DNA of 64,000 nt from Diphasiastrum complanatum. Taxonomy: Eukaryota; Streptophyta; Lycopodiopsida; Lycopodiales; Lycopodiaceae. The notes beneath the pieces were generated by a model. That model was not told the DNA's origin, ran no database searches, and saw only the letters and a program-made list of their open reading frames with translations. The stretch lies in contig CM055094.1 in NCBI GenBank assembly GCA_029204225.1, positions 8,787,234 through 8,851,233 of the forward strand. The letters run 5' to 3'. A program made the translations under genes and the position numbers. Positions within the stretch are counted from its first letter, which is position 1; every line of letters starts with the position of its first letter. Below, piece after piece: positions 4,861 through 49,698 of the stretch.

Positions 4861-5040
4861 TCAATGTCTCATTAGAGGAGTTCTCAATATCAAAAAGACC
4901 CTTTGTAAAGATACTTTTATTGGTTTTCTTCAGTTTCGACTATCACCAGGCCCAATCAAAATGCACAGGTTTGAAATCTATGTAACGTAGTTCAAATTAA
5001 CTGAGAAATAAAAATGCAATATAGAAAACTTTGAAATTTG

Positions 5041-5335: not shown

Positions 5336-6708
5336 ATGGCAAGGAGACCCAGATCTACAATCGATTCTGTGATTCTTTACAATGAGAAAGATGAAGCTGA
5401 TAACTGGAAGCCAACAAAATATACGAAGAACTCATGGGTATTGCTGCATCCATCATCAAAGGGCAATTTTCGACAAAAGAAAAGAGCAAAAATGACTTAC
5501 AAATCTTATTGGAAAGCAAAAATTTTGGAGTTTAAGACTACCCCAGGAGGTCAATCTATATCAGAAGTCTTAGTACAACATGTATATATGCATTCAGAAA
5601 TCAAAGTACATGATATCAATCCTCATGATCATCAAAAATGTAATTGTAAGTATATCAAAACATATGCACTCTACAACAATCATAGGTGATTTTCTTTATT
5701 GATGCTCTTCAGATTATGATTTAAATGTTTCAACATTGTTTTTTTCTTTCAGATTTATATCCATCATGCATAAGTGAATGGGAGCCCACACAATCACTTG
5801 CAGGAATATTAGACGTGATTCATTCTGATGTTGGAAAGCTGCAATACAGAGGAAGAAGTCCAAAGAAACTTGCAGATTGTGGTATCTATTTTTATGAATC
5901 TTTATATATGCCACAAACAGATGGAGGTTTTGGCAAGCTCGAAGCAATTCCATTGCCTAGTTTTCAAAGTGATGAGTGGCCTACTCCTGATAGCATTGTT
6001 TCTGAATCCTTGAGATGCAAACTACTAATTGATATTAGAAATGCTATGAAGATAAGCACAGGCTCAAAAATTGTTCACCTAAGTTGGTTTATCTCATTAC
6101 ATATATTTGTTGATTGTTTTTCGAGTGCTAGTGTTCGTAGGACACCAACTTTATTTGTTTGCAAGGATTTATCAGATGAGACTTTATCAGATCTCATGGA
6201 TCAAGGCTGGAATAGTAAAACAAATAATGACATAGAATGCAGGATTAAAAAGTCCTCAATGATCTTTCATTATCATATCGAAAAGCAAATGCTCAATCTT
6301 ACATTTAGCTACCAGAGATACAAGAAAATTGAAGGTACATGGCTACCATTGGATCAAGACTTTCAGCTAAATGGTCACACAAACCGAATGGAGTTAAGCA
6401 TTATCTACAATGAGGAATATTTGACTATGGTTGAGGTGGAAGAACATTGGAAGCTTGATTTTATAAGAACAGAGCTCATGCTATTACAAACCAATCTACC
6501 AACATATTTCAGATTTATCATCAACGGAAGACTCGTAAGTACTTTATGTTTATTGCCATGTCAAAATAGAATAAAATAATAGAAAATGTCATCATTTACA
6601 ATTGCACATTCACTAATATTTGTCATGTCACGGATGCGAAAAAGACAGGAGCTGATAACGTGCTGCAAAGATCTACCTACAACAATCACCATTGTGGGAG
6701 AACAATAG
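5336..6708 (+). CDS. Unrecognised 383-residue protein, possible BAH-like N-terminal domain
   Basis: Three exons can be joined with phase-consistent GT-AG introns: 5336-5645, 5753-6534 and 6649-6708 (introns of 107 and 114 bp, donors GTAAGT). The result is uninterrupted, 384 codons including stop. The start is the first ATG (MARRPRST) after the E2F-like site. Residues about 30-128 (NSWVLLHP, YWKAKILEF, VLVQHVYMHSEI) have the strand spacing of a BAH-type domain, but this is by eye and weak. The remaining 250 residues are mixed helix/strand with no motif I know. It converges on the histone/Ulp1-like gene, whose stop lies only 196 bp away. The preserved frame suggests a functional gene or recent mobile cargo. 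Confidence 0.6.
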
Positions 6709-6904: not shown

Positions 6905-8631
6905 TTAATTTAGTACAACTACATCATCCTTTGCACCATCATCAATAAAGGGAGGCTGAAGCCTTGTCCTAGCCAGTATACTCAGGATGATTTCTTGTCT
7001 GAATCTGTACACCTGGCTTGATGTGTACTTAGGAAGTGTAAACTGCAAAATAGAACATTCATGTATTAGTAATGGCTAAAAACATCAACAAAATAGAAAA
7101 CTAATCATGATTCTAAAATAAGAATACCCAGAATTTATCACCTTAGAAATATCAACATCTTGTTGAAGGTTGAACCACTCAAAAAATAGCTTTGCATTGT
7201 ATAATGTGTACCAACCACAACTGAAAGAATCATTTTGTTGTGGTGACTGCAAAATAATTCAGCACAAAAGAAATCAATTATGAAACATAATGAAGTAGAA
7301 TGAAACAATTACATTAGAATATTGATTTCAACATGCTATTAAGAAAGACAGAGTTTACCTCCAAACTCACAATCTCCCAGTCCACGAAATGGGAACATCT
7401 ATAGGAATTTATTTACTTAAATATGACAAATATATATCTACATCCTTGTGCGTATTTCTCGCCAAATTCATCTTGACACAAAAACCTTTGATATTATTAT
7501 TTACAGATTTCTTAATAGAAATCAGGTTTAAACTCTAGTGGTCACTGTAAAATAAGATTGAAAGTCCTTTAGCGGCAATTTTGAGAGCTATTTAAGTTGA
7601 AAATGCCAATTTTAATGCATAAAACAACAAGAAGCATTTAATATATCTTACTTGGTATGATAAGCGGATGAGCAGATACTTTGTTGCTAATGTGAATCCA
7701 CTTGTCAGACACTGTGACAATGTGTCATTATTCTCTTTGAAGGCCTGGAGCAGAAAGTTACTCAGCACCAGCAACTCATTGGATGAATCTCTTGCAATGT
7801 CAAATTGCAAGAGTGTCAGCCCGGACTCTATCACAGGATCACTGATAGAAGTCCGTCTGTCTTTGAGATCCAAGCAATCTAGAACTCTAAAATTAATACT
7901 AAAATCAAATTCCTCTAGTCTAAAATAAAAAGGAGTACCTCAAATTTAAGATACTCATCCGAATCTATATATGTATAAAAATTTGGAGGAGAAAGAGGAG
8001 GTGGATGTGTAGTATCTACAGGAATTAAAGCGATATCCACAACAGTTGTAGCTATATTTACAGCATTATCAACAACAACGTTATCTACAATTGATTCCGG
8101 GTCAGGTTTCACAGAATTTGTGGTGTCTACAATCTTTACTTTCTTTGAAGCTCTCTTGGGGGCTCTCTGCTTCCTAGGACGCTTCGTAGGAAGATCAGTC
8201 CTATCTATAGGAGTTGGCCTGGGAGCAGAAGGCTGAGATACGAGTAACCTACAAAACCTATCCCTCATTCTCATCAGGAGCTGAAATTCCTTGGGCATTA
8301 TGGTGACTCTCTTGGAATGGATGGCAAGCAAAAATGAATCTTCAAAAAAAAGACTAAGGTAATCTTCAACAGCCTCCTGAAGGCACTGAAGAGCACTGGG
8401 TGTAAATCTGACCAGCTTTCCAAGATCATTTCTTGTTATGTTTCGGACAGCACGGGAGAATGGAGCCCTTGGGATCAACAGAGCAGTTGATCTCTGGTAC
8501 TTGCGTATCTCAGAGAGCCACCTGCTACGGTTGCGCGTTCTATGTCTACCAGGAGGGGTAATGGCCACTGCAGGGGTTGAGGATGAGCCAGGAAAGAAGA
8601 AGTCCCTCCTTGTTTGCATTTTCCTATCCAT
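6905..8631 (-). CDS. Divergent histone H3/CENH3-like fold joined to a Ulp1/C48 peptidase-like C-terminus
   Basis: Exon 1 (8631-7939) encodes a 36-residue Arg-rich tail without the ARTKQT start of H3, then a full H3-type fold at about residues 37-125: EIRKYQRSTALLI, LQEAVEDYL, FFED, AIHSKRVTIMPKEFQL. LLIPRAPFSRAVRNIT and EDYL recall CENH3 more than H3; loop 1 is one residue longer than in H3. A basic stretch (residues 149-168, KRPRKQRAPKRASKKVK) could be an NLS. Later exons 7825-7680, 7398-7359, 7246-7142 and 7042-6905 keep frame to a stop (373 residues) if a weak donor (AAA|GTATCT) is used; the better donor CAA|GTAAGA at 7652 breaks frame. Exons 3-4 read DWEIVSLE-SPQQNDSFSCGWY, the Ulp1 Gln and Cys motif (Gln297, Cys303); the catalytic His/Asp part is not evident, so peptidase activity is doubtful. 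Confidence 0.65.
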
Positions 8632-8828
8632 GGACGTGTACTATGCAATAGTGGACTTGTGCGCGACGGTGAGGATGAGCAGGGAAGGGTGATAAAAATC
8701 TCGCAGAGGACCGATATGTACGGAAAAAACGTACGGTATATCGGACCTGTGTGAGCTTAATATAAGAGAAAGAGATTAGTTTTGAAGAAACGCGCACAAG
8801 TGCGATACAGGGGGACAGTAGGCAGATG
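8632..8828 (-). promoter_or_regulatory. Upstream region of the histone-fold gene
   Basis: Contains an inverted repeat (CCGATATGTACG / CGTACGGTATATCGG, about 8710-8745) and one copy of an 18-bp motif, CGCGCACAAGTGCGATAC (8791-8808), that recurs five more times at 14683-15253. The stretch TATCGGACCTGTG... to the motif is similar to 14630-14700 on the other side of the Copia insertion. The LTR element starts 197 bp from the ATG, so it may have displaced or replaced the original promoter. Confidence 0.45.
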
Positions 8829-9468
8829 TGTGAAAATTGTCAACATTTCCTAGCTAGTTTGAGGCCTAAATTGGCAATTTTTGTACATAGTTTTGGATCT
8901 AAACTTTCACAGGTGTAAAAGAGGCCTAGATACTTTTATTTTAGTATATATTTCATATTGAAGAAGTCTCAAACTTCAAGACCTTTGAAATGACACCAAA
9001 ATCATGTTATTTGGACATATAGGCCAAAATTGGCTATTTTAGGCTACTGGTGCCCTAAAATTGGGTCCTGAGAGAGAGTCATCTCTCTCACCTATATTAG
9101 GCTGAAATTTGTGGAGAACAGGTTGGAAAAACTTATTTTATTGTTGAGAGAGATCAATAGATCATTGTCACAGTTTCTTCCTCCATTGAGAGCATTGCTT
9201 TGTGTATTGTCTTCAAGCTTTTGTGTATGCTCTTAAGAGGTTTCCAAAAGTGGTAGGATGCTGTTGTAGGGCTGGTATGCTGTTGTTTTTGGCTGCCATC
9301 AGTACCTTTTATTAGTTTCTTTTGTCTCTTGAATGCTTTGTCAAGTTCATGTGTATCAAAGGTAGCATTAGGATGCTTTGCCATTTCTAGCTTTTGTAGC
9401 TTGTTGTGCAAAGATCTTAGCCAAGTATTTTGGGAGTTTGGATCCATTCAAGATCCACTTTTTTCACA
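8829..9468 (+). repeat. 5' LTR of the Copia-type element
   Basis: 640 bp, TG...CA bounded. It contains the palindromic tract GAGAGAGTCATCTCTCTCAC near 9071 and is closely matched by 13975-14629. A short relic of the same LTR occurs at 16598-16676. Confidence 0.9.
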
Positions 9469-9480
9469 TGGTATCAGAGC
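9469..9480 (+). promoter_or_regulatory. Primer-binding site (initiator-Met tRNA)
   Basis: TGGTATCAGAGC directly after the 5' LTR is complementary to the 3' end of plant initiator-Met tRNA, the usual primer for minus-strand DNA synthesis in Copia elements. Confidence 0.92.
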
Positions 9481-10616
9481 TAGTTGGCTGTTATTTTTAG
9501 TAAGGTTTCCATTTATGGGGATATTTGGATGTTTGATCAAGTTCTAGCATGATTGTGCATTGCATTGTTGATCAAATTTTACTAACCTTTGTTTTGTGAG
9601 TTGAACTTGTGGATCAAAAGCATATTTCAGGTCTATTGAAGATCAGAGGCTGAGAAGAAGCTATTTTGGATTCACCTAATCATTTGTTGATTGTGAGGCT
9701 TGTGCATATTCAATACTAACAATGTCCTGTTCAATGTATTGTTGACAATCTCCACTTCTGTGGATGAACACTCTCCTTTGTGGATGAACACTCTCCTTAA
9801 GTGGATGAACCTTCTCCTTAAGTGGATGACAAATACTCTTTGAGTGATTTTGTATTTCTCCAAAAGGCTGAGCAAAGCTCCCACTTGGATGAAAAATCCC
9901 CTTTTGGGTGGACAGATTGTCAACAATCTTTTGCATAAATTTTGGTGTACTTTGTTGAGCATGTAAGTAACTCTCCTAATGTAATTTGATTGGAACATTT
10001 GTTGGAAGGTTTTAGCCATTATGCAAATGTGTTTTCAGGTTCTTAACAGGTTGAGGAACATTCTCATGTGAAGTGATTTTAGATCTACATCTAAACACCA
10101 AGATTTGACAAGCTAGTGAAGCTAGTCTTGTGATTCACTAAGTGTGCTCTTTCATTCACCTCTAAAGCTTGTATTTATCACTTGCTGGAGTTTATAAACT
10201 TTTAGAAGTATGGTTTACATGTGGTTTTACAGGTTGAATCAATATCTTGGTGTGTTGATCATATGTTGATCAAGTTTGTTCAATTCTAGGTATTCTTGGC
10301 AGCCTAGTCTTTTGTATTTTCTAAGAATGCAAGTCACTCTTCACACCATAACTTGATTTGGTCAATTGCTGGAAAGTTTGAGTGCTTAAGGAAGAGTGTT
10401 TCCAGGTTGGTTTGAGTTTGTAATCCATTCTTAGTGTGTGCAAAGTGTTGCATGTGTTTCAATCTTCATTTCTATGCTTGGAAACCAGCCAGGTTCAAGA
10501 TAGAAGTGTTTTAGGGTCCTAGATCTTCTAGATCTCCTTATCCATCATTTGTTGAGAGGAAAGTGAGTGCTAGGTGCATTATGATAGAGCCTAAAAGTTG
10601 AAGAATAATTATATTC
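9481..10616 (+). other. Untranslated leader of the Copia-type element
   Basis: About 1.1 kb between PBS and gag without a long sense frame. It contains a run of short tandem units near 9765-9830 (TGTGGATGAACACTCTCCTT repeated three to four times with variation). No other feature recognised. Confidence 0.6.
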
Positions 10617-11454
10617 ATGGCTTCCAATGGTGGGATTATGTTAGAAACTAATGATAGGTTGAGTTCATCAAACTACTCTACCTGGAAAGTGAGGATGGAG
10701 TCCTTACTTGAGTTGAATGAACTCATGGACATAGTTGCAGGAGCTGAAGAGAGACCACCCACAGTTCAAGAGCAACAAAGGTTTGATAAGAAGGCTAAAA
10801 TGGCTCTTCATATCATTAAAATGAATGTTACCAATGAACTTCTCAAGGAAGTTGGTAAAAGTCAAAGTGCAAGTGAGGCATGGAATGCCTTAAAGAAGCT
10901 CTTTGAATCAAAGTCCACATCTAGGGTATTGACCCTAAGGAGGCAAATATTTTCTAGTAGACAAAGAGAGGTGCATGTCTTGAGGGTTAAGTCCTTGAGT
11001 GATGATCTAGCATGCATTGATGAAAGCATAAAAGATGGTGAAATAGTCCAGGTCATGTTGAATGGTTTGCTAGATGAACATGCTAACCTTGTGCAAAGTT
11101 TTGCCATTCAAAGAGTCTTGCCAAGTGTGGTTGACTTGCAAGAAATCTTATTGGCTGAAGAACATAGGTTGCAATCAAAGCTTGATGGTGCATCCTTACA
11201 AGGTGGAGGTGAAGAGGCTTTCTTCACAAAAGGCAAAGTCAAAGGCAAAGGTAAAGGCAAAGAGAAATGGTCCAAAGGTGGTAACTCGGATCATGATGAT
11301 CACTCTTCCTCCTCCTCTTCTACTTCTTTTAGAAAGAAATAAGTCAAAGTTCAAGTGCTTTTATTGTGGGATAAAAGGTCATTTTGCAAATGAATGTCAT
11401 AAGAAGCAAAGTAATGAAGGTAGCAAGCAAAACAAGTGTGGTCTTCAAGTCTAA
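10617..11454 (+). CDS. Copia gag (UBN2-type) with CCHC knuckle, frame-shifted
   Basis: The first 241 codons (MASNGGIMLETNDRLSSSNY...) show the plant Copia gag pattern: L-SSNYSTWKVRMES, SASEAWNALKKLFES, then a Lys/Gly-rich and Ser-rich tail, ending at 11340. The zinc knuckle CFYCGIKGHFANEC is in the +1 frame immediately downstream (stop at 11452-11454), and the protease returns to the first frame. Either a one-base change near 11335 broke gag or frames are joined by slippage. Gag would form the particle; partners are the element RNA and its tRNA primer. Confidence 0.8.
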
Positions 11455-12065
11455 TGTCAAGTGGAAGTGACAAGGATTCATGGTGGATAGATAGTGGATC
11501 TAGTTCACACATGACTAGTCACAAGGAGTTCTTTACTCCTTTGATCTCTTATGTTGGAACCAAGAAAGTGGTTCACATGCCAAATGGTGGTGAGTGTATG
11601 ATCAAAGGTATTGGCTCAATTCCTATTTGTCTTTCTACTAATAGGAATGCAAGGCTTGATAATGTTCTTTGCATTCCTTCACTTTCAAGGAATTTGCTAA
11701 GTGTTGGTCAAATGTTAAAGAAAGGGTACAAGACAAAGTTTGTTGGGGATGTTTGCTTCATTACTAAGGGAGATGTCTTGATTGCTAGGGGCAATAGAAA
11801 AAGTAGACTTTACAAGCTTGATGCATTTTTTATGTCTAACAAGAGGAATGAAATGGATTTTGGTGGTTCTCTCAACTTTCAAAAGTCAATTCCTAGCATC
11901 CATAAGATTGGTATATCTTATGCAAAGTCTAAAGAGCTTTCTTATGCTAGATCTAGGTTGAGATCTAATGAGCTTCTTGGAGATAGTTATTGTTGTGCTA
12001 ACTTGGCAACATTTGGTGAATCTATGATCAATGTTTTGGATCCATTGGATCTTGAGATGGACTAG
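11436..12065 (+). CDS. Copia aspartic protease and pre-integrase-like tail
   Basis: The frame contains SWWIDSGSSSHMTS, an intact D-S-G active site, followed by VVHMPNGG, LDNVLCIPSLSRNLLSVGQ and SRLYKLD, the order found in Copia protease/GAG-pre-integrase segments. It lacks the H-LGH / C-C zinc finger that should follow, then leads to unfamiliar sequence and stops at 12063-12065. It has no in-frame ATG at the frame's start, as expected for part of a polyprotein. Confidence 0.8.
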   Translation: MWSSSLMSSGSDKDSWWIDSGSSSHMTSHKEFFTPLISYVGTKKVVHMPNGGECMIKGIGSIPICLSTNRNARLDNVLCIPSLSRNLLSVGQMLKKGYKTKFVGDVCFITKGDVLIARGNRKSRLYKLDAFFMSNKRNEMDFGGSLNFQKSIPSIHKIGISYAKSKELSYARSRLRSNELLGDSYCCANLATFGESMINVLDPLDLEMD

Positions 12066-13961
12066 TGCTACCTACTAGTCAAATGGAGTCATGTGGTGCT
12101 AAATTAGTATCATGTTTGAACTCCTCTACTCATAGATTTTCAAGTCTTGGTGGCTCTTCAATGGAACTACATGGCAAGTGCAAAAATGGAAAAGGTAAGA
12201 AGAGAGCTAACTTCATCAATAAAGGTGATGAAAACTTGTCTTTGGAAATGGTTGTTTCTAATGACTTATTTACTCATTTGAAAAAAGATGGTGCTTTGAG
12301 CATGTTTGAAGAAAAAGGTTCTTTTGCATCTTTATGTGATGAGTCCAAGAAAGTCATTTGTGCAACAAGTGGTGTCACATGTATTCATAAAGAAAGTAGA
12401 TCAAAAGGTTCTATCATGAGACTTGGTGAGGATGATCTCAAGTCAAAAGGGAGAGATGAATGTGAAGTGTTCGAAGTAGGATGTACCTTGAATGATGCTT
12501 TTGTGAATGATAGTGAGGGTTCATTATCATTACCTATATCACTGATTAGAAGTCCAGGCTTGACAAGAAAAAGTACTTCAATCATTCTTATGTTGAAGGT
12601 ACTATGTGTTCTTTTCATGGCTTCTAATGTTCGAGATTCTTCCATTTCTTATGATGCAACTATCAAGAGGGAGATTGCTAACTTTTGTCGTGTGATCATT
12701 AAGAGGGAGTCTTGTGAAGGAAAGGGCAAAGGAAGAGTGACTCTTGAGAAGATCCAAGGCAGGGATCTTAAATCTCTTCATCAACTCAAAGGATGCTGTA
12801 ATTGTGGTGGAGTGTTCATGCATGATCAAAAATCTATCTTTTGGTTTATGATGGTGACATTGTTTTCACTAACTACAGTGAAAGGTTGAAATCAAGCAAT
12901 GATGAGATCTTGTGGGATGTTAATCATGTGTTTGAGAGGGAGTATCTTCAGAGGTTCAGATCTGAATATGTTTATAAATGCAAAGTCCTTGATGTTTTGT
13001 TGGAAGATCAAGATGTTGATCTTGAATTGCTTCATCAACACCAAGAGACAAGTAGCAATTGGAAGCTAGTCAAAAGCATCAAAGGGGAGCCACATGGGCA
13101 AAGCATTTTGGATCTATTTTTACAGGTTCTTGAAGGTTCAAGTAAGGTTCTTGGATTAGCAAGGAAGAGTCCTTTTACTCTACCTTACTTGTTTAGTCTC
13201 ATGTATAAACATTGTCATGTCAATGTGTTGGAATTGTCAAAATTCAATGAAACTAGTTCCATAGTTTTGCATCCTTTGGTTCTTGGAGATGGAATAGTTA
13301 TCATTGCTGGTTTTTATGATCAAGTAATGCATTCATTCAAATCTTGAAAGATATTGAAGTGGTCAATATGTTTACTTTTGAGCAAAGTTTAAGATCTAGC
13401 ATCCTAGTGTTGGCAAATTGGCAAATTGTTGACAATGTAGGACCAAGGGTTGTATGCAAATCTTGTGGAGATACTTCAAGTATTTCAAGTTCAGGTTTTG
13501 CTCATTCAAATGGAGCAAAGAACACATCATTTTGGCATTCATTCACTCAAGGGCTTTCATGTATTGGAGATCTACAAAGGCAAGGTGGTGATGGAGGTTC
13601 ATTCATGGAGATACATGGCGCATTCACTATGGGCATAGTGGAATATGGAGGAGGCATGCAAACACTTGTTCGTTACTTTCACTTACAACTTGTTTGCTGC
13701 TGTTTTACAGAGAATTCAAAGGTGGATACATGGAGGAATCCTTTCATTATGATTCTATGTTCTTTTACGTGTATCTTGTTCACCATTCTATGTAAAATTG
13801 ATGTAAGAAATAGTGAAGCATCCTATATGGACACTATTATCTATATCAATTATGTTGTACTTCATATTGTACATATTAGAACACTTGAGAAGAGATCTAT
13901 TATCATGATGGAGATCATTCTTAAGCTGGAGCAAAGTAGTGTTGTAAAACTAGCAAGTTAA
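12065..13961 (+). CDS. Unrecognised module occupying the integrase/RT position
   Basis: Three abutting frames (12065-12889, 12841-13347, 13344-13961) overlap slightly and show no HHCC, DDE, RT (YVDD) or RNase H motif. Part of it (DVDLELLHQHQE..., NWKLVKSIKGEPHGQSILDL, LPYLFSLMYKHCHVNV) is clearly homologous at base level to 56500-56760, and the Gly-rich GGSFMEIHG segment near 13585 recurs as GDGSSFMECHEG on the minus strand at 55310 and as GGSSMELHGKC near 12150. It therefore spread as part of a retroelement family. Whether it makes protein is unknown; the frames are probably decayed. Confidence 0.5.
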
Positions 13962-13974
13962 GTTGAAGAGGGAG

Positions 13975-14629
13975 TGTGAAAATTGTCAACATTTCCTAGT
14001 TAGTTTGAGGCCTAAATTGGCAATTTTTGTACATAGTTTTGGATCTAACCTTTCACAGGTGTGAAAGAGGCCTAGATATTTTTATTTTAGTGTATATTTC
14101 ATATTGAAAAAGTCTCAAACTTTAGGACCTTCGAAATGACACCAAAATCATGTTATTTGGACATATAGGCCAAAATTGGCTATTTTAGGATACTGGTGCC
14201 CTAAAATTGGGTCCTAAGTTCTAGAGAGAGGAGAGAGAGTCATCTCTCTCACCTATATTAGGCTGAAATTCATGGAGAACAGGTTGGAGAAACTTATTGT
14301 ATTGTTGAGAGAGATCAATAGATCATTGTCATAGTTTCTTCCTCCATTGAGAGCATTGCTTTGTGTATTGTCTTCAAGCTTTTGTGTATGATCTTAAGAG
14401 GTTTCCAAAAGTGGTAGGCTGCTGTTGTAGGGCTGGTATGCTACTGTTTTTGGCTGCCATCAGTACCTTTTATTAGTTTCTTTTGTCTCTTGAATGCTTT
14501 GTCAAGTTCATGTGTATCAAAGATAGCATTAGGATGCTTTGCCATTTCTAGCTTTTGTAGCTTGTTGTGCAAAGATCTTAGCCAAGTATTTTGGGAGTTT
14601 GGATCCATTCAAGATCCACTTTTTTCACA
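13975..14629 (+). repeat. 3' LTR of the Copia-type element, preceded by polypurine tract
   Basis: 655 bp, TG...CA bounded, nearly identical to 8829-9468 apart from scattered substitutions and a 14-bp insertion near 14218. The purine run GAAGAGGGAG at 13965-13974 is the plus-strand primer site. Confidence 0.9.
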
Positions 14630-15270
14630 GTATCGGACCTGTGCACATGGAAGGCGGTGGGTGGAAATTCGATTGTGAAAGACGCGCACAAGTGAGATAT
14701 GCGGAGCGAAAAAAATAAGTGAAAAAAATTCATCGAAGTTTGTGATTTTATATCGCGGTTCACACGTGCGAAAGAATGTCCTGTCACACGTGTGGGAGTT
14801 GTACGAACTAATGACAGAGTGACACATGTCACATTGTCACTTTACACATGTGGGATTTGTACGAGCAAATGATAGAGCGACACGTGTTTTTGAGCACACG
14901 AATGAACACGCGACATGTGTCCAATTGTCATTTCACACGTGTCCAGGTGTCACCTCACACGTGCGAGTAGCTGTAGTCGAATGGAAAGCAGACATGTGTC
15001 CATTGACCGTTGATCGCACGTGCAAAAATTTAGTATAAATGGCACAAAAACCGATTAATTTTTTTACCTTTTTTCATTATCAAAATTTGCGGCATATCGC
15101 TCTTGTGCACGCGCTTTGTTGTCCGTTTGCACTCAACGACACCTACTTGCGCACAAGTGCGATATTCAGTATCTCGCGCCGTACATATCTCTCTTGTGCG
15201 CCATCTTGATAGTTAGTTTTGTTTCTCTTCTCCCTCGCGCACAAGTCCAATATTCACGTTATTTCGATGG
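14630..15270. promoter_or_regulatory. Array of 18-bp motifs and CACGTG boxes
   Basis: Five copies of a motif with consensus CGCGCACAAGTGCGATAT lie at 14683-14700 (+), 15094-15114 (-), 15149-15166 (+), 15185-15202 (-) and 15236-15253 (+); a sixth is at 8791 across the Copia insertion. Six CACGTG cores occur at 14763, 14787, 14881, 14936, 14958 and 15017, mostly within CACACGTGT-like contexts, plus CACATGT variants. Such clustering in both orientations is typical of transposon subterminal binding sites or of a shared bidirectional promoter. It precedes the damaged ORF at 15720. Confidence 0.55.
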
Positions 15271-15329
15271 CCTCTTCCTCATGATCCTCATGAGATTCAG
15301 GCTTGAGTTCATTTCTTAGTGAATTTGGG

Positions 15330-15720
15330 ATTACTGAAAACTTGGAGTACTTCCACAGCCTATTCAAGCAATATCTACATGTTTTCAGGACTGCACAACC
15401 AAATTCTGACGTTTTTTTATCAACATCATGTTAGATTCAGAGATATACTTAGTAAGCCTGTTTCTCCATAGGTTCACTCCAGTACATGCATTATACTGAT
15501 CTGGTTCATTTCTTCCCAGCTTTCAGAATACTCCATCTGACGTTGAGAGCATTATCAATGGGTCAATTGATTATTCACTCTTCCATATTTGTTAGCTGTT
15601 CACCAAATTGTTTGATGTTTTCAAAAGCAGTTCACTGTGTCCTTATTGCAACAAGAAATGTCGATTGGTTGAATATCAGAGTGGTACTTTTCCTGTTAGT
15701 TTAGATCTCAGATGATGATG
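15330..15720 (+). pseudogene. Possible 5' coding remains of the third ORF
   Basis: Broken frames include a Cys-pair stretch (SLCPYCNKKCRLVEYQSGT, about 15635-15695) and SLFKQYLHVFRTAQ (about 15355). Stops separate them. They may be earlier exons of the acidic ORF downstream or unrelated. Confidence 0.3.
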
Positions 15721-15721
15721 A

Positions 15722-16595
15722 AATTTTGTTGCTGACCCTCCTTTTGCATCATTGTCCGTTCAGTCAGCTTTTAAGGATATTAGTCACTTTCTTATCGACA
15801 CTCCTGATAAGGAAAGTGACTTTATCGATATAAATACTGATTTTCTACGGGATTCTTTTATTGGCCAAAATACATCTGCTGATGAATCCAACCCTATAGA
15901 GGAGTCTAAATGTCTATTCAATTTGCCTATATATTATATTAATGACGATGTATATTTTACTACTGCTGATTTATGTAAATTTTTTGACTATCGTGAAGAC
16001 GAGGTTCTATGCTTATTATATGGCACAATTTTCGAATTCTTCAACTTCGTAGATTTTGAAAAAGATGACCTTGTTGCTGGTATTGATTTTGATTATGAGG
16101 AGGAAATTATGACTGGTGAAGAATGCTTGACTAAGACTTTATCAAATATAGTTGAGGATGGGCGAGGCAGACCATCCGATGAAGAATTCACGGCATTTCA
16201 ATCCCAGATGGGCTTCCCTCGTCCATCATTATTGCATTTCACGGATGATTCCAATTCAGTACGTGGTCATTATGTTGATCATCTTGATCTGGGTGCTGCT
16301 GATGATGAAGAATGTGTAAGTGTTTAAACTTCCTTGCATTAAGATATTTCTAATCAATGAATGTGTTTTTGCTAACATGTTTCCTATTGCATGATGCTCT
16401 CATAATAGATGATTTTGTTGCGAGACGAGGTGGTTTCAGACAACACACATCATCTTTCCAGAGGGATAGTGGAATTGGCCACTATCTTAGGCATTTCCAA
16501 AAGAATGAGATCTGTATTGCTCATTCCAAGCTGAGCCCAGTCGGGGAGACTCTTATAATGGCAGTTAAAGCTTTATCATTTTACCTAGGAGGACA
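15722..16595 (+). pseudogene. Unrecognised acidic ORF, third member of the 5-16 kb module
   Basis: From 15722 an open frame of about 198 codons runs to 16318 and is rich in Asp/Glu/Phe (LCKFFDYREDEVLCLLYG, DFEKDDLVAGIDFDYEEE). It has no ATG near its start; a TGA immediately precedes it, so the first exon is missing or a base was lost. A plausible intron (16314-16409, donor GTGTAAG, acceptor TAATAG) leads to a second stretch (DDFVARRGGFRQH..., SPVGETLIMAVKALSFYLGG) that runs into an LTR remnant at 16598. I do not recognise the family. Read away from the histone-fold gene, it would share its upstream region if the Copia element were absent. Confidence 0.4.
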
Positions 16596-16597
16596 TA

Positions 16598-16676
16598 AAA
16601 GAGGAGAGAGAGAGTCATTTCTCTCACCTATATTAGGCTGAAATTTTGGAGAACAGGTTGGAGAAACTTATTGTAA
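16598..16676 (+). repeat. Fragment of the 8829-14629 element's LTR
   Basis: GAGAGAGTCATTTCTCTCAC and the following TATATTAGGCTGAAAT...GGAGAACAGGTTGGAGAAACTT match the LTR interior at 9071-9140 and 14236-14296. It interrupts the third ORF, so a further copy inserted or was templated here. The open frame continuing to 16900 (84 codons) is unrecognised. Confidence 0.75.
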
Positions 16677-16900
16677 AGACAAATAAGATCACTTTTGTCA
16701 AAAGATCTTATGTTTTGAACATTTTAGACTTTACTGATGGGAATGATCCTTTAAGGAGCTCCCATTATTCATTGTATTCCACTTATGTTGAGCTTAGTGG
16801 AAATAATGATAATGCACATCTATTAGATGCATACACTAGTAGAGAATTTCTTCATAACAATATCGTCATAGAATCTCATACAAGATCTAATGATGAATAG

Positions 16901-17430
16901 TTGACACTTTGTATATTGGTATAATACAATCAATACATTTATATTGAGTATTTCTCCTTTCTTGTTCAATGAATTTGCAAAGCAATTCTGAACATGTCAT
17001 GATTTGATGACAATGATGATCTTCTACTCAACAATCATCTAATTTTCTCTTCCTGTATGAATTTGCACGTTTTTCTAAGCTTGTTGTATTGTGTGGACTT
17101 TGTTATATGTCGAATCTGAACTCTGTGGTAGAACCACTGAAACAATTGACAAATGTAGTTTTGTTTTTCATTGGTTCCTCCATGTTGTGTATTTCGATGA
17201 AATGCTGCTCGTGCTTGCCAGTGTGACTTCTCCATCCCTTGTGATGACCATACACTCAAGCTTCCATATGTATTTGCAAAAAATGTCGTATGATCTCTTA
17301 GTATGGGCTGCATATGTCAAAATCATAATGTTAGTCTTATGTTTGGATCCATAGATAGAAGAGGTCGGAGCAATAAGACGATGCTACATTATAAGACGAT
17401 GATAGTTTAGATAAAAAAAATCACTAGCCT
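16901..17430. other. No gene recognised
   Basis: AT-rich, short overlapping open frames on both strands without motifs. ATAAGACGATG occurs twice (17373, 17391) just before the hairpin array. Confidence 0.4.
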
Positions 17431-20770: not shown

Positions 20771-20889
20771 TAAAATGATTTAAGCCTATAAATCACATAA
20801 TATCTGAGATATTGTCGTCGGACAAATTAGCACATTGGGGGCAAGCAGAGCCAACTAATGAAATGCTTCTATGTTGTCCAACGACAATT

Positions 20890-21405
20890 TTAAAATTTAT
20901 TAAAATCTATTTTTATTTTTTAATTTTTGTGAGCTACATTAAATAGATTTCAAATATATGCATTTTGATTGCGCCAAATGTTGGACAAAATTAAAAAAAA
21001 AAACATCTTTAGAAAGAGTCGTTTCAAAGTTTAGAGCTCCTCTAATGGTTGCTATGGTCCATAGCTTAGGGGCTAGATTTGACATGTTTAAGCCACCATC
21101 CATTTCTATTGTTGTTATTGGCTTTAGCCATCCTAGAAAATTGCAAATCTTGACTTATTTCAAGGGAGTTCTAAAACTTGCCATAAGATCATTGACAATG
21201 TGCATTTGAGTGGAGGCCGAATCAGTAGCTGGCAACGCTTGAAAGAATAGAAACGACAGGTTAAAAAAAAACAAAAATCATGACAACACAAATTTAGAGG
21301 GAAAAGCCTTAAAAAGAAGGCATGAGAGCTAAGTGTGATCCAAAATACTAAAGCGCCACATTCGCATGTCTTTGCTTTTTTGGCATTATGCGTGTTAGTT
21401 TAGCC
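20890..21405. other. No gene recognised
   Basis: AT-rich stretch; an 83-codon open frame at 20958-21209 has no motif I know and no supporting signals. Confidence 0.4.
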
Positions 21406-33420: not shown

Positions 33421-34590
33421 TTGTGCCATTCTAATCCTTTTGTAAGAAGAATTTATCTTATGCATATCCATACTATCTAAGATAATTGATTGAAAACCTT
33501 GCCAATGGAAAGCATTTAAGTCCTCATTATCAGAGTGTTAAACTGGTTATAAAACGGTAGATGCTAGAAAGTAGGAAAAGAAGTATTCAAACATATAAAG
33601 TCTTTACTAGTCATAGAGAATTGATTATCTTCATAAAACAAAGGCATCTTCCTTTTGAACGTAAGAGATTATGCACAAACTGAATTTTGTTTCGAGAAAT
33701 CATACCTGGATGATTGCATATGTGTTTTCTTGTGAGGATGCCATATTAATCCCTCGAGTGCTTTTGTTTTTTTTTTGAATCAAATCATTAATAACATTAT
33801 TGTCAAATAGGATATTTTCATCCTTGTTTAGAAGCATAAATCAAAGTATCGAAGATAGCCATACATCAATTGCTCTATCGAGTAAGAGCAAAGGATATAG
33901 CTATGTACCTATGCAGACGCTTATCAATAAATGGTTCGAAACTGAACCTAACCGAAAAAAGAAGGCCGTAATATTAATCGATGCTACAAGATGTACATGC
34001 TCTCTCCGTTAGTGATTCAAAACTAATATATTCTTTGAAGTAGAAACTAGTCGAAAGTATGCTAGTAGTCGGACAAATACGTGAGAGAAGGCAGAGAGCT
34101 TTGTGCATGTTGTATCATCAATAGTAACAAAAAGTGCAAGATTTATATCCGATCAGGATGGTCTTGAGACCTTGGAAGTCCAATTTCTTCCTCGTGTCTT
34201 TTGAGATCTGCGCGTAGGCAATGAAGGCAATAGCCAACAGACAGAATCAAACTCCATCCAAGTTTGATCATTGCAAATTCAACAAAATAAGAGTTCGTTC
34301 TCGGACTTCCTTCTCAACATGAATGATGGTTTTTGCTAACAATTATATATGACAAGCACCACTATCCAGCGATGGATAGGTTGTTTGTTCAACTGTCTAC
34401 TGAGTTTTGAAAGGTCACTCAGCTTTGTTTCCACCTTTAGCTTCAGCAACAGACTAGAATAAAATTGTGTGGGGAATCATCATCAAATAAAATTGTTACG
34501 GCTTCAACCCCCTTCATCTGAATGAGGTGGTGAGGGCCAAAAATAGCCATATTAAAACAACAATGCTCACACACAGAATTATTCGAGCCC
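33421..34590. other. No gene recognised
   Basis: AT-rich, short unconvincing open frames only. Contains the isolated hairpin TATCCA-GCGA-TGGATA at 34364-34379 related to the 17.4-18.0 kb array. Confidence 0.4.
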
Positions 34591-34592
34591 CA

Positions 34593-34701
<109 letters not shown>

Positions 34702-34899
34702 CCACTCAAGCCTACGTCGTAGAGCTTGGTTGTATGCCTACGTGGTTTGCCATGTGGCAGCTTGCGACAAGCTTGGCAAATAACAGGCCTATGACATGCA
34801 TACGTGGCCTACTACACTGTTGGCTGATTCTGATGAATCCCCAAGATGCTCGGCCAGATGCTCGGGCGCATCTGTTCTGAATAAATCTATTCTGATTAT

Positions 34900-47454: not shown

Positions 47455-48640
47455 ACCCTGACTGCGAGCTATGGTAGTTCTCATAACACTAATAATAACA
47501 TGACACAACTTTGAGCTCAACAAAGAAATCCAAATGGAGCATCAAAAAACTCGATTATTCTTCACTTTCTATTCCACTTGAAAAGGTGAAATGGATTGAC
47601 GAGAAACAGGAGAGGTGAGAAGGATGATAATGAGTGGATGAGATGTTTCTTTGCTATGATGAGGTGCTAGCGTATGCAAATCAATTAAGTATTTTGATGT
47701 TTTGATAAGAGCAAAGCTTAAAGAGAGAAGATTGCAGCCTTTTGAGATCTCTGTGTCAAGTGTAGTGCTGAAAGTGATCCAGGAGCGTGTTTCACTACAA
47801 CAATTCGGACAACTTTTGAGGTAAATATTTAGGTTTTTTTTAATGATTTTTTTTCTTAATTGGTTATCCTCAGTTTACCTCTTAGTGTCAAGGTTGAAAC
47901 AATATCCTCGGTATACATGTTGTTCAACTCTTCAGTATTATCCTTGTTAAAGATTGTGCGACTCTCGGGATATCTTACAAGCACCGCCCGTGGGATATTT
48001 GTTGGGGCCCATGGATTTTATAAATATGTTTCTGAATGCGTATTCCCTCTTGAAATATGGAATCAAAACATGAGTGCCATTTTGTGATGGAAATTAAAAT
48101 ATTAGCACACCGACAATCAAGGAACCCAACCCCATGAGTCTTTTCAGAACTCCTTATATATATAGCAAGTGAGAAAAGTTTATTGTTGATTAGAGGGTAA
48201 CACAGTTCACAAAGTATGAATATAGATTAAATAATAAGATGAATGAGCAATATTAAATATTAAATAATAAATATCTGTATATAACAATAATGATCCAATT
48301 ACAATGTTTGTACAAGAGAAATATCTTATAAAGTGAAACAATACATGTATCTAAAATATGTTATATTTCTTACTAGATCCTAAGCCGGACCTGTCCTCCT
48401 TGACACTAATATTGGACTCTACATCATGATCTAGAATTAGAGATTGTGCTTGTTGCATGCCACAAATACGAAATAGTGAGTTTAAAAGAAAAGAGAAAAA
48501 GAAAAGAGAGCAAGATGGTGATAAAGCATGAGTATAGTGAGAGAAATTGAAGAGAGAAAAAACGATAGAGAGAGATAGTGACAAAGTGTGACTACTGGTA
48601 TATAGTGAGAGTGTGAGAAAGAGTCACTGATAATATGAGA
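47451..48640. other. No gene recognised
   Basis: AT-rich; short frames without motifs. Becomes GA-rich from about 48500. Confidence 0.4.
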
Positions 48641-49219
<579 letters not shown>

Positions 49220-49698
49220 AAAAATCTGTTTCAATAGACTTGAGCACCATTGCAATCGAGAACAACTCCTTGTCTCTCTAGTAAATCGAACAACGGATCA
49301 CACATTATGGGCATACATATACATGTATTTGTCCCTAGTAGGAGATCGATGTACCATCAATTTTCACATAAACCAACAAAATCATAATTAAAATCACAAT
49401 AAATAAATAGATAGATTTAATTATGTAATGGATGTCACTAAAAACAAACTTAGCTTAGAAGAATAAGATGTAGAAAATAGGCATTAAAATGTCCCTTGTC
49501 TCCACCGTCCAAATGAGAAGGCCTTGCAAAATCAAGTTGTGCCTTTGCAACCTCTTGTTTGTTCGAATTTTCTAGGTCATCTTAGTACTCTATCCTTGGC
49601 CGTCTTCTAGTTGTTTTTGGGCACATGGGGTGGCCTGACAATTTATGCTCTCATTGAATTACGAATCATCAATTTGCAGTGACTCATTACACTTTACA

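Follow-up and report, generated by a model that had tools for sequence, protein, structure and literature searches.

The DNA analysed here (from now on the window) is a stretch of 64,000 nucleotides from Diphasiastrum complanatum (Lycopodiopsida; assembly GCA_029204225.1, contig CM055094.1, positions 8,787,234 to 8,851,233). A preliminary description, made from the letters of the window, had pointed out an H3-type histone fold, called CENH3-like, followed by exons for the Gln/Cys end of a Ulp1/C48 peptidase. The locus raises the questions whether the two folds belong to one protein, to what kind of genetic unit the gene belongs, and what such a protein could do.

A histone fold and a Ulp1 domain in one gene

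The gene, here called gene H, is present in the window as a decayed minus-strand copy, 8631-6905, whose exon boundaries (Table 1) were mapped from another copy, L020. Positions 8631-7939 (-) form one open frame in which, as originally noticed, the H3-type fold runs on past alpha-3 without a stop. The 3-base periodicity is strong in the DNA of the basic tail (8249-7939; 9.5, p 0.002) and weak in the histone part of the window copy itself (1.85, p 0.09). The last third of the Ulp1/C48 domain is encoded by 7398-7142 and 7042-6905 (-). WEIVSLE and SPQQNDSFSCGW, encoded by 7398-7142, had been correctly recognized as the end of this domain; the open reading frame holding the exon 7246-7142 matches the C48 profile of Pfam (3.2e-4, 21.0 bits, cut-off 20.7), and exon 4 taken alone gives a weak Ulp1 signal (hhalign, P 0.059). 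Exons 3-5 of the preliminary description, when joined, scored 36.0 against a profile of four sequences (SENP1, SENP2, SENP8 and yeast Ulp1), which was reached by none of 200 shuffles (maximum 20.8) and by none of the 275 other open reading frames of 60-250 residues in the window (maximum 21.7). At the level of sequence, both halves of the original observation are real, beyond chance.

Table 1. Gene H, its domains and its neighbours in the window
Feature	Position	Strand	Content and basis
Right terminal inverted repeat, window copy	4870..4904		0 mismatches to terminus of other copies
Gene A	5337..6576 (exons about 5337-5651, 5755-6576)	+	tail to tail with H; convergent in 13/16 copies
Exon 4, gene H	6905..7042	-	C-terminal helix of Ulp1 domain, then stop; hhalign to SENP/Ulp1
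Exon 3, gene H	7142..7246	-	SPQQ...SCGW = Ulp1 active-site Gln and Cys; Pfam C48, hhalign controls
Exon 2, gene H	7359..7544	-	catalytic His 7540-7538, then TAG 7537-7535; WEIVSLE at end
Exon 1, gene H	7652..8631	-	H3-type fold, basic linker and N-terminal part of Ulp1; ORFs, Pfam, other copies
Histone fold	8263..8550	-	Pfam PF00125, residues 28-123, 1.6e-28
LTR retrotransposon, foreign to element	8829..14629	+	LTRs 8829-9468 and 13975-14629, K2P 0.032
Rest of element copy beyond LTR insertion	14630..17357		colinear identity to L009 and L019 stops at 17357
Gene B	15266..16900	+	divergent from H; decayed: in-frame stops beside ATG; divergent in 15/16 copies

The assembly of this genome (1,744,706,496 bases, 1.74 Gb; 5176 contigs) yielded 7641 first-look candidates for further copies, of which 150 were scored. 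All 150 match gene H (E 4.7e-154 to 1.5e-109, identity 74-100%), which gives at least 150 matches, with every contig from C1 to C24 represented; this number is not the true copy count, as some equal-scoring rows may be duplicate assemblies of a single copy. Counted by hand, 36 of these matches contain no stop. The 24 copies that were read are a non-random set, consisting of the 8 best-scoring ones (the window copy included; L007 and L008 look alike) and 16 of the 36 stop-free ones. Gene H is uninterrupted in five of them (L009, L012, L015, L020 and L022), with four exons and three GT/AG introns; the other 19 have a frameshift, a stop or a lost splice site.

The protein predicted from L020 has 479 residues, in which a basic linker connects an H3-type fold to a Ulp1/C48 domain. 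Pfam finds both domains in this one protein, Histone at residues 23-123 (78.2 bits, 8e-22) and Peptidase_C48 at residues 327-450 (PF02902; 37.5 bits, 3e-9, cut-off 20.7, profile span 83-203 of 217); NCBIfam gave no match for it. Among the 16 copies for which 10 kb were read, 15 have Ulp1 exons after the histone exon, L023 with just the last of them; L014 has none. The pairing, which might have been absent from all other copies in the genome, is thus found well outside the window. Read across these copies, the histone-Ulp1 fusion is real, present many times and borne by an element.

The other copies also corrected the gene model. The preliminary description had exon 1 spliced at 7939 and exon 2 standing by itself; in 14 of the 16 copies read at 10 kb the frame of exon 1 stays open for 331-341 codons, past this point, and the window copy lacks 31 nt relative to L020 at CDS position 689, near 7939, which shifts the frame. 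The apparent exon 1/2 boundary arose from this deletion, and the 373-residue model of the preliminary description contains a false intron. The phases of its exons 2 and 3 are incompatible. A scored search gave several in-frame models within the window, complete ones with the donor at 7939 and exon 1 joined straight to the SPQQ exon among them; this donor was ruled out by the reading through of the other copies and by the 31-nt deletion. As a separate exon, the former exon 2 was likewise rejected: its score against SENP2 is attained by 207 of 1000 shuffles and that against SENP1 by 899 of 1000, a further test gave P 0.23, and exon 1 of L020 includes this stretch, the complete domain there matching SENP2. 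Other placements of the stretch, made by eye, were dropped. Relative to the L020 reading frame the window copy also carries a TAG in place of the Trp next to the catalytic His, another stop and further small indels.

The Ulp1 part of L020 matches solved proteases (6dg4, 1.6e-4; SENP2, 3.1e-4, query residues 44-189; yeast Ulp1, 6.9e-4), and its active-site motif reads LLIPYHTNDHWSL...KMNS...WQIVSLESPQQNDSFSCGW. The catalytic His, once thought to be missing, has its codon in the window (Table 1) and is conserved in 24 of 24 copies; the Gln is kept in 20 (three stops and one Pro in the others) and the Cys in 17. Since the His is present in the family, the suggestion that the protein binds rather than cleaves, which had been drawn from its absence, fails in this form. 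The same suggestion can be made from another residue: at the position of the Ulp1 Asp, aligned by eye, all 22 copies with letters there have Asn (two have gaps), and a protease part with Asn for Asp could hold SUMO or a related modifier uncut, so that the fusion would mark or cap chromatin. Against this stand the retention of His, Gln and Cys and the fact that papain-like enzymes work with a Cys-His-Asn triad; we regard a pure binding module as rather unlikely.

The histone part is clearly of the H3 type. The window reading frame gives 99.9 bits with PF00125, and its best PDB sequence matches are H3. An AlphaFold2 model (mean pLDDT 62.0, pTM 0.42) has helices at 34-48, 58-70, 78-105 and 113-132, the last being a long alpha-3, with a low-confidence tail, and the 50 Foldseek matches listed are all from nucleosome structures (best E 8.1e-05, with a TM-score on the query of only 0.25-0.26). 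The canonical ARTKQTARKS tail is absent; the N-terminus is MDRRKQTRRDFFSPGSSS... in L020 and MDRKMQTRRDFFFPGSSS... in the window.

CENH3/CENP-A proteins are distinguished from H3 by a longer loop 1, by the lack of Gln at H3 position Q68 and by Trp replacing Phe at the start of alpha-2. Loop 1 of the fold of gene H is one residue longer than that of H3; the Q68 position is occupied by Tyr in 23 of 24 copies and by Ser in one, Gln occurring in none; and alpha-2 starts with Phe, not Trp, in 24 of 24. A Pro follows LLI in 22 of 24. Over the histone fold the identity is 55% to H3.2 (48/87), 51% to a CENP-A chimera (43/85) and 50% (44/88) to an Arabidopsis CENH3. A tree did not separate these alternatives. 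We call the fold H3-type; a CENH3 ancestry, as the designation CENH3-like implies, is possible.

The element that carries the gene

Gene H sits in a high-copy element with inverted repeats and is probably not an ordinary host gene. The gene order is B-H-A, B lying divergent from H in 15 and A tail to tail with H in 13 of the 16 copies read at 10 kb; genes A and B have no Pfam match above cut-off. In complete copies the homology stops sharply, and the ends are CATTAGAGGAGTTCTCAATATCAAAAAGACCCTTT in inverted orientation (termini CATTAG..CTAATG); the other copies are truncated. In L019 the two termini agree at 35 of 35 bases and delimit an element of 9273 bp (9.3 kb), and L012 has both ends with one mismatch each.

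Joining the flanks of L010 gives a sequence that is matched in two related parts of the window (92.8% and 83.3%), precisely at the junction too, and these read as uninterrupted empty sites. The joined flanks of L019 span a 70% relative without a gap and those of L009 do so with two extra bases; L012 has no comparable empty site. Insertion took place between ACA and TCT and between CTC and ATC, and in the testable cases (L010 and L019, with L009 2 nt off) there is no target-site duplication. The pair compared for the window copy is not a true pair.

The left 3 kb of the full copies (L009, L012 and L019) hold another gene with several exons, which lies on the strand of H and whose product would have a coiled-coil-like stretch and a Cys-pair motif. 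Its HPCxYC end is reminiscent of uncharacterised transposase-like proteins, and this gene is a candidate for the transposase; three fragments of it (two of L019, one of L012) gave no Pfam match above cut-off.

The common ends with 35-bp inverted repeats, the uninterrupted empty sites for L010 in two related window stretches and the occurrence of matches on every contig from C1 to C24 all argue against a host gene family, in which an H3 variant would have gained a Ulp1 domain and spread with its neighbours by ordinary and segmental duplication. Such a family would be in line with the low dN/dS given below and with the repeated pieces of A or B near three copies; we consider it very improbable. 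These pieces lie beside the unit in L014 (7811-8711), L017 (7767-9449, A and B without H) and L018 (8338-9485), which suggests copies arranged in tandem or nested in one another.

The window copy of the element begins at its right terminus (4870) and can be followed to about 17357, and its left part is missing or unrecognisable. An inverted end at 20805-21047 was considered as the left end of the window copy and rejected, because what it matches, at 71%, is a right end, and it would thus belong to another or a rearranged element, perhaps of a related second family. The LTR retrotransposon (Table 1), flanked by AGATG on the left and GTATC on the right without obvious target duplication, sits in the upstream region shared by H and B; L009 and L019 read through the site without it.

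Other features of the surroundings were recorded in passing. The H/B intergenic region (8632-8828 and 14630-15265) is dense in short repeats; the H/B upstream region holds all four plus-strand occurrences of CGCACAAG in the window and likewise all four of CACACGTG; and an inverted repeat pair lies just upstream of both start codons. Very long CT/GA simple repeats at 48592-49230 and 34446-34877 have open frames of Ser-Leu or Glu-Arg repeats.

Selection on gene H and its possible function

For the five uninterrupted copies the pooled dN/dS is 0.18 in the histone fold, 0.22 in the Ulp1 domain, 0.31 in the N-tail, 0.54 in the linker and 0.28 overall. Per pair the whole-gene value is 0.21-0.47, and it is below 0.35 in 9 of the 10 pairs, which, coming from five copies, are not independent. 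The choice of uninterrupted copies introduces a bias against stops and none against amino-acid change.

The codon positions tell a more reserved story. Divergence of the histone fold at positions 1, 2 and 3 is 0.065, 0.084 and 0.195 among the five copies and 0.070, 0.057 and 0.183 among the other 19; that of the Ulp1 domain at positions 1 and 2 is 0.074 and 0.062 among the five, and that of the linker is almost equal at the three positions among the other 19 (0.126, 0.111 and 0.124). The introns of gene H have diverged by 0.104 among the five and by 0.137 among the 19. The low dN/dS of the histone fold is therefore in part due to a high dS, third positions (0.195) having changed faster than introns (0.104), and measured against introns the constraint on gene H looks modest, weaker than dN/dS implies. 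We read both folds as having been under real but moderate constraint while the family spread. The LTR retrotransposon was tried as a clock for selection and proved uninformative: at its K2P of 0.032 a neutral simulation keeps the reading frame open in 53% of runs.

These data also bear on a passive capture, in which a transposon took up histone and Ulp1 genes and the fused product has no function. There is a precedent in Dothideomycete fungi, where a hAT element is reported to have amplified an H3 gene to hundreds of copies, all but the original being inactivated (PMC6710886). That 19 of the 24 copies are broken and that introns exceed codon positions 1 and 2 in divergence by only a modest margin would fit such a capture, and the intron comparison has made us slightly less confident in the main reading given below and slightly more inclined towards capture. 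The whole-gene dN/dS values of the uninterrupted pairs, the relaxed linker between two tighter folds and the catalytic His unchanged in every copy speak against it, and on balance we hold it to be improbable.

Our preferred reading, in our judgement probable, takes the locus for a decayed histone-Ulp1 fusion gene, one of the copies in a high-copy DNA element, the protein of which would be nuclear, target chromatin and strip off a SUMO-like modifier. The histone fold might pair with H4 or with a chaperone and so bring the protein to chromatin, either the element's own or that of the target; the protease could then remove SUMO or a related modifier there, and this removal might counter silencing or ease integration. 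By analogy we infer an anti-silencing role of the fusion protein. Such deSUMOylation at chromatin is plausible because anti-silencing factors of transposons are known and because SUMO proteases are linked to centromere chromatin.

A more specific proposal, which we make tentatively and think possible without favouring it, is that the histone supplied by the element serves to target it: the H3-type fold would enter nucleosomes of the element or its target, or attach to them, and the tethered Ulp1 domain would strip SUMO-like marks there, so that the element's own chromatin stays open or the element is aimed at a special state of chromatin. We know of no other chromatin-embedded transposon protease. 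Transposons carry factors that lift silencing by DNA methylation; an element-borne fusion of a histone with a SUMO protease, apparently under constraint, would be a different weapon, one that acts on the nucleosome itself. Whether selfish elements write their own chromatin would become directly testable, and the retention of such a fusion by a mobile element may be a sign of a new means of interfering with the chromatin of the host. For annotation there is a warning: histone-like genes in genomes of this kind may belong to transposons.

Comparison with known systems

A protein search with the histone part found 17 histone-domain proteins at E <= 1e-3 among 297 candidates and, with longer candidates, 3 at E <= 1e-5 among 377; none of the listed matches has a C48 domain, in a search that relies on shared 5-residue words and may miss relatives. 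With the Ulp1 part, 0 of 263 candidates, for which shared 5-residue words were likewise required, reached E <= 1. A virus-borne histone was considered and set aside, scans of viral contigs with the histone, gene B and gene A having given no relative. In the literature no histone-Ulp1 fusion was found among the matches listed, which consist of titles and abstract openings and mostly exclude subscription papers, and the accessible parts of the compared work (PMC13317346, PMC12730594, PMC6981222, PMC12595034, PMC6710886) do not describe a histone joined to a protease.

With respect to the Ulp1 domain two host enzymes come to mind. SENP6, a protease of the Ulp1 family, acts on CENP-A chromatin (PMC6981222), and ESD4 was found in kinetochore pull-downs (PMC12595034). 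Unlike the fusion, both are separate host enzymes with no histone attached.

The termini and insertion sites of the element invite a comparison with TIR transposons. Spy insertion follows a rule by which the element enters between AAA and TTT; the sites of the present element differ from it, and no PIF/Harbinger-type transposase was found in the left-gene fragments examined. The present element resembles Spy-type TIR transposons in its lack of a target duplication where testable; 0-bp target duplications are noted among Harbinger relatives (PMC12730594), and Spy is a PHIS group (PMC4482050).

Other transposons carry chromatin enzymes as cargo. The TET/JBP genes in fungal KDZ, Plavaka, hAT and other elements are thought to aid escape from silencing (PMC12730594); in this they are alike. 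The present element differs in its enzyme, which is of the C48 protease type and joined to a histone, in its CATTAG..CTAATG termini and in that no target duplication was seen.

Closest in its cargo is KIU of the VANDAL-type Mutator-like elements, also a plant DNA transposon with a Ulp1 domain; KIU and VANC belong to Ulp1-bearing transposon genes, and VANC directs the hypomethylation of related elements (PMC13317346). The partner of the Ulp1 domain is a VANC-type gene in KIU and an H3-type fold here. KIU elements are non-TIR MULEs, whereas the present element has 35-bp inverted termini and, where testable, no target duplication; the element fragments and the L020 protein examined gave no Pfam match to a MULE domain.

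Closest in its histone is the fungal hAT element mentioned above, in which an H3 sequence was also multiplied by a DNA transposon (PMC6710886). In contrast to this capture, the H3-type fold in D. complanatum is diverged and fused to a protease, and some of its copies are uninterrupted, with low dN/dS.
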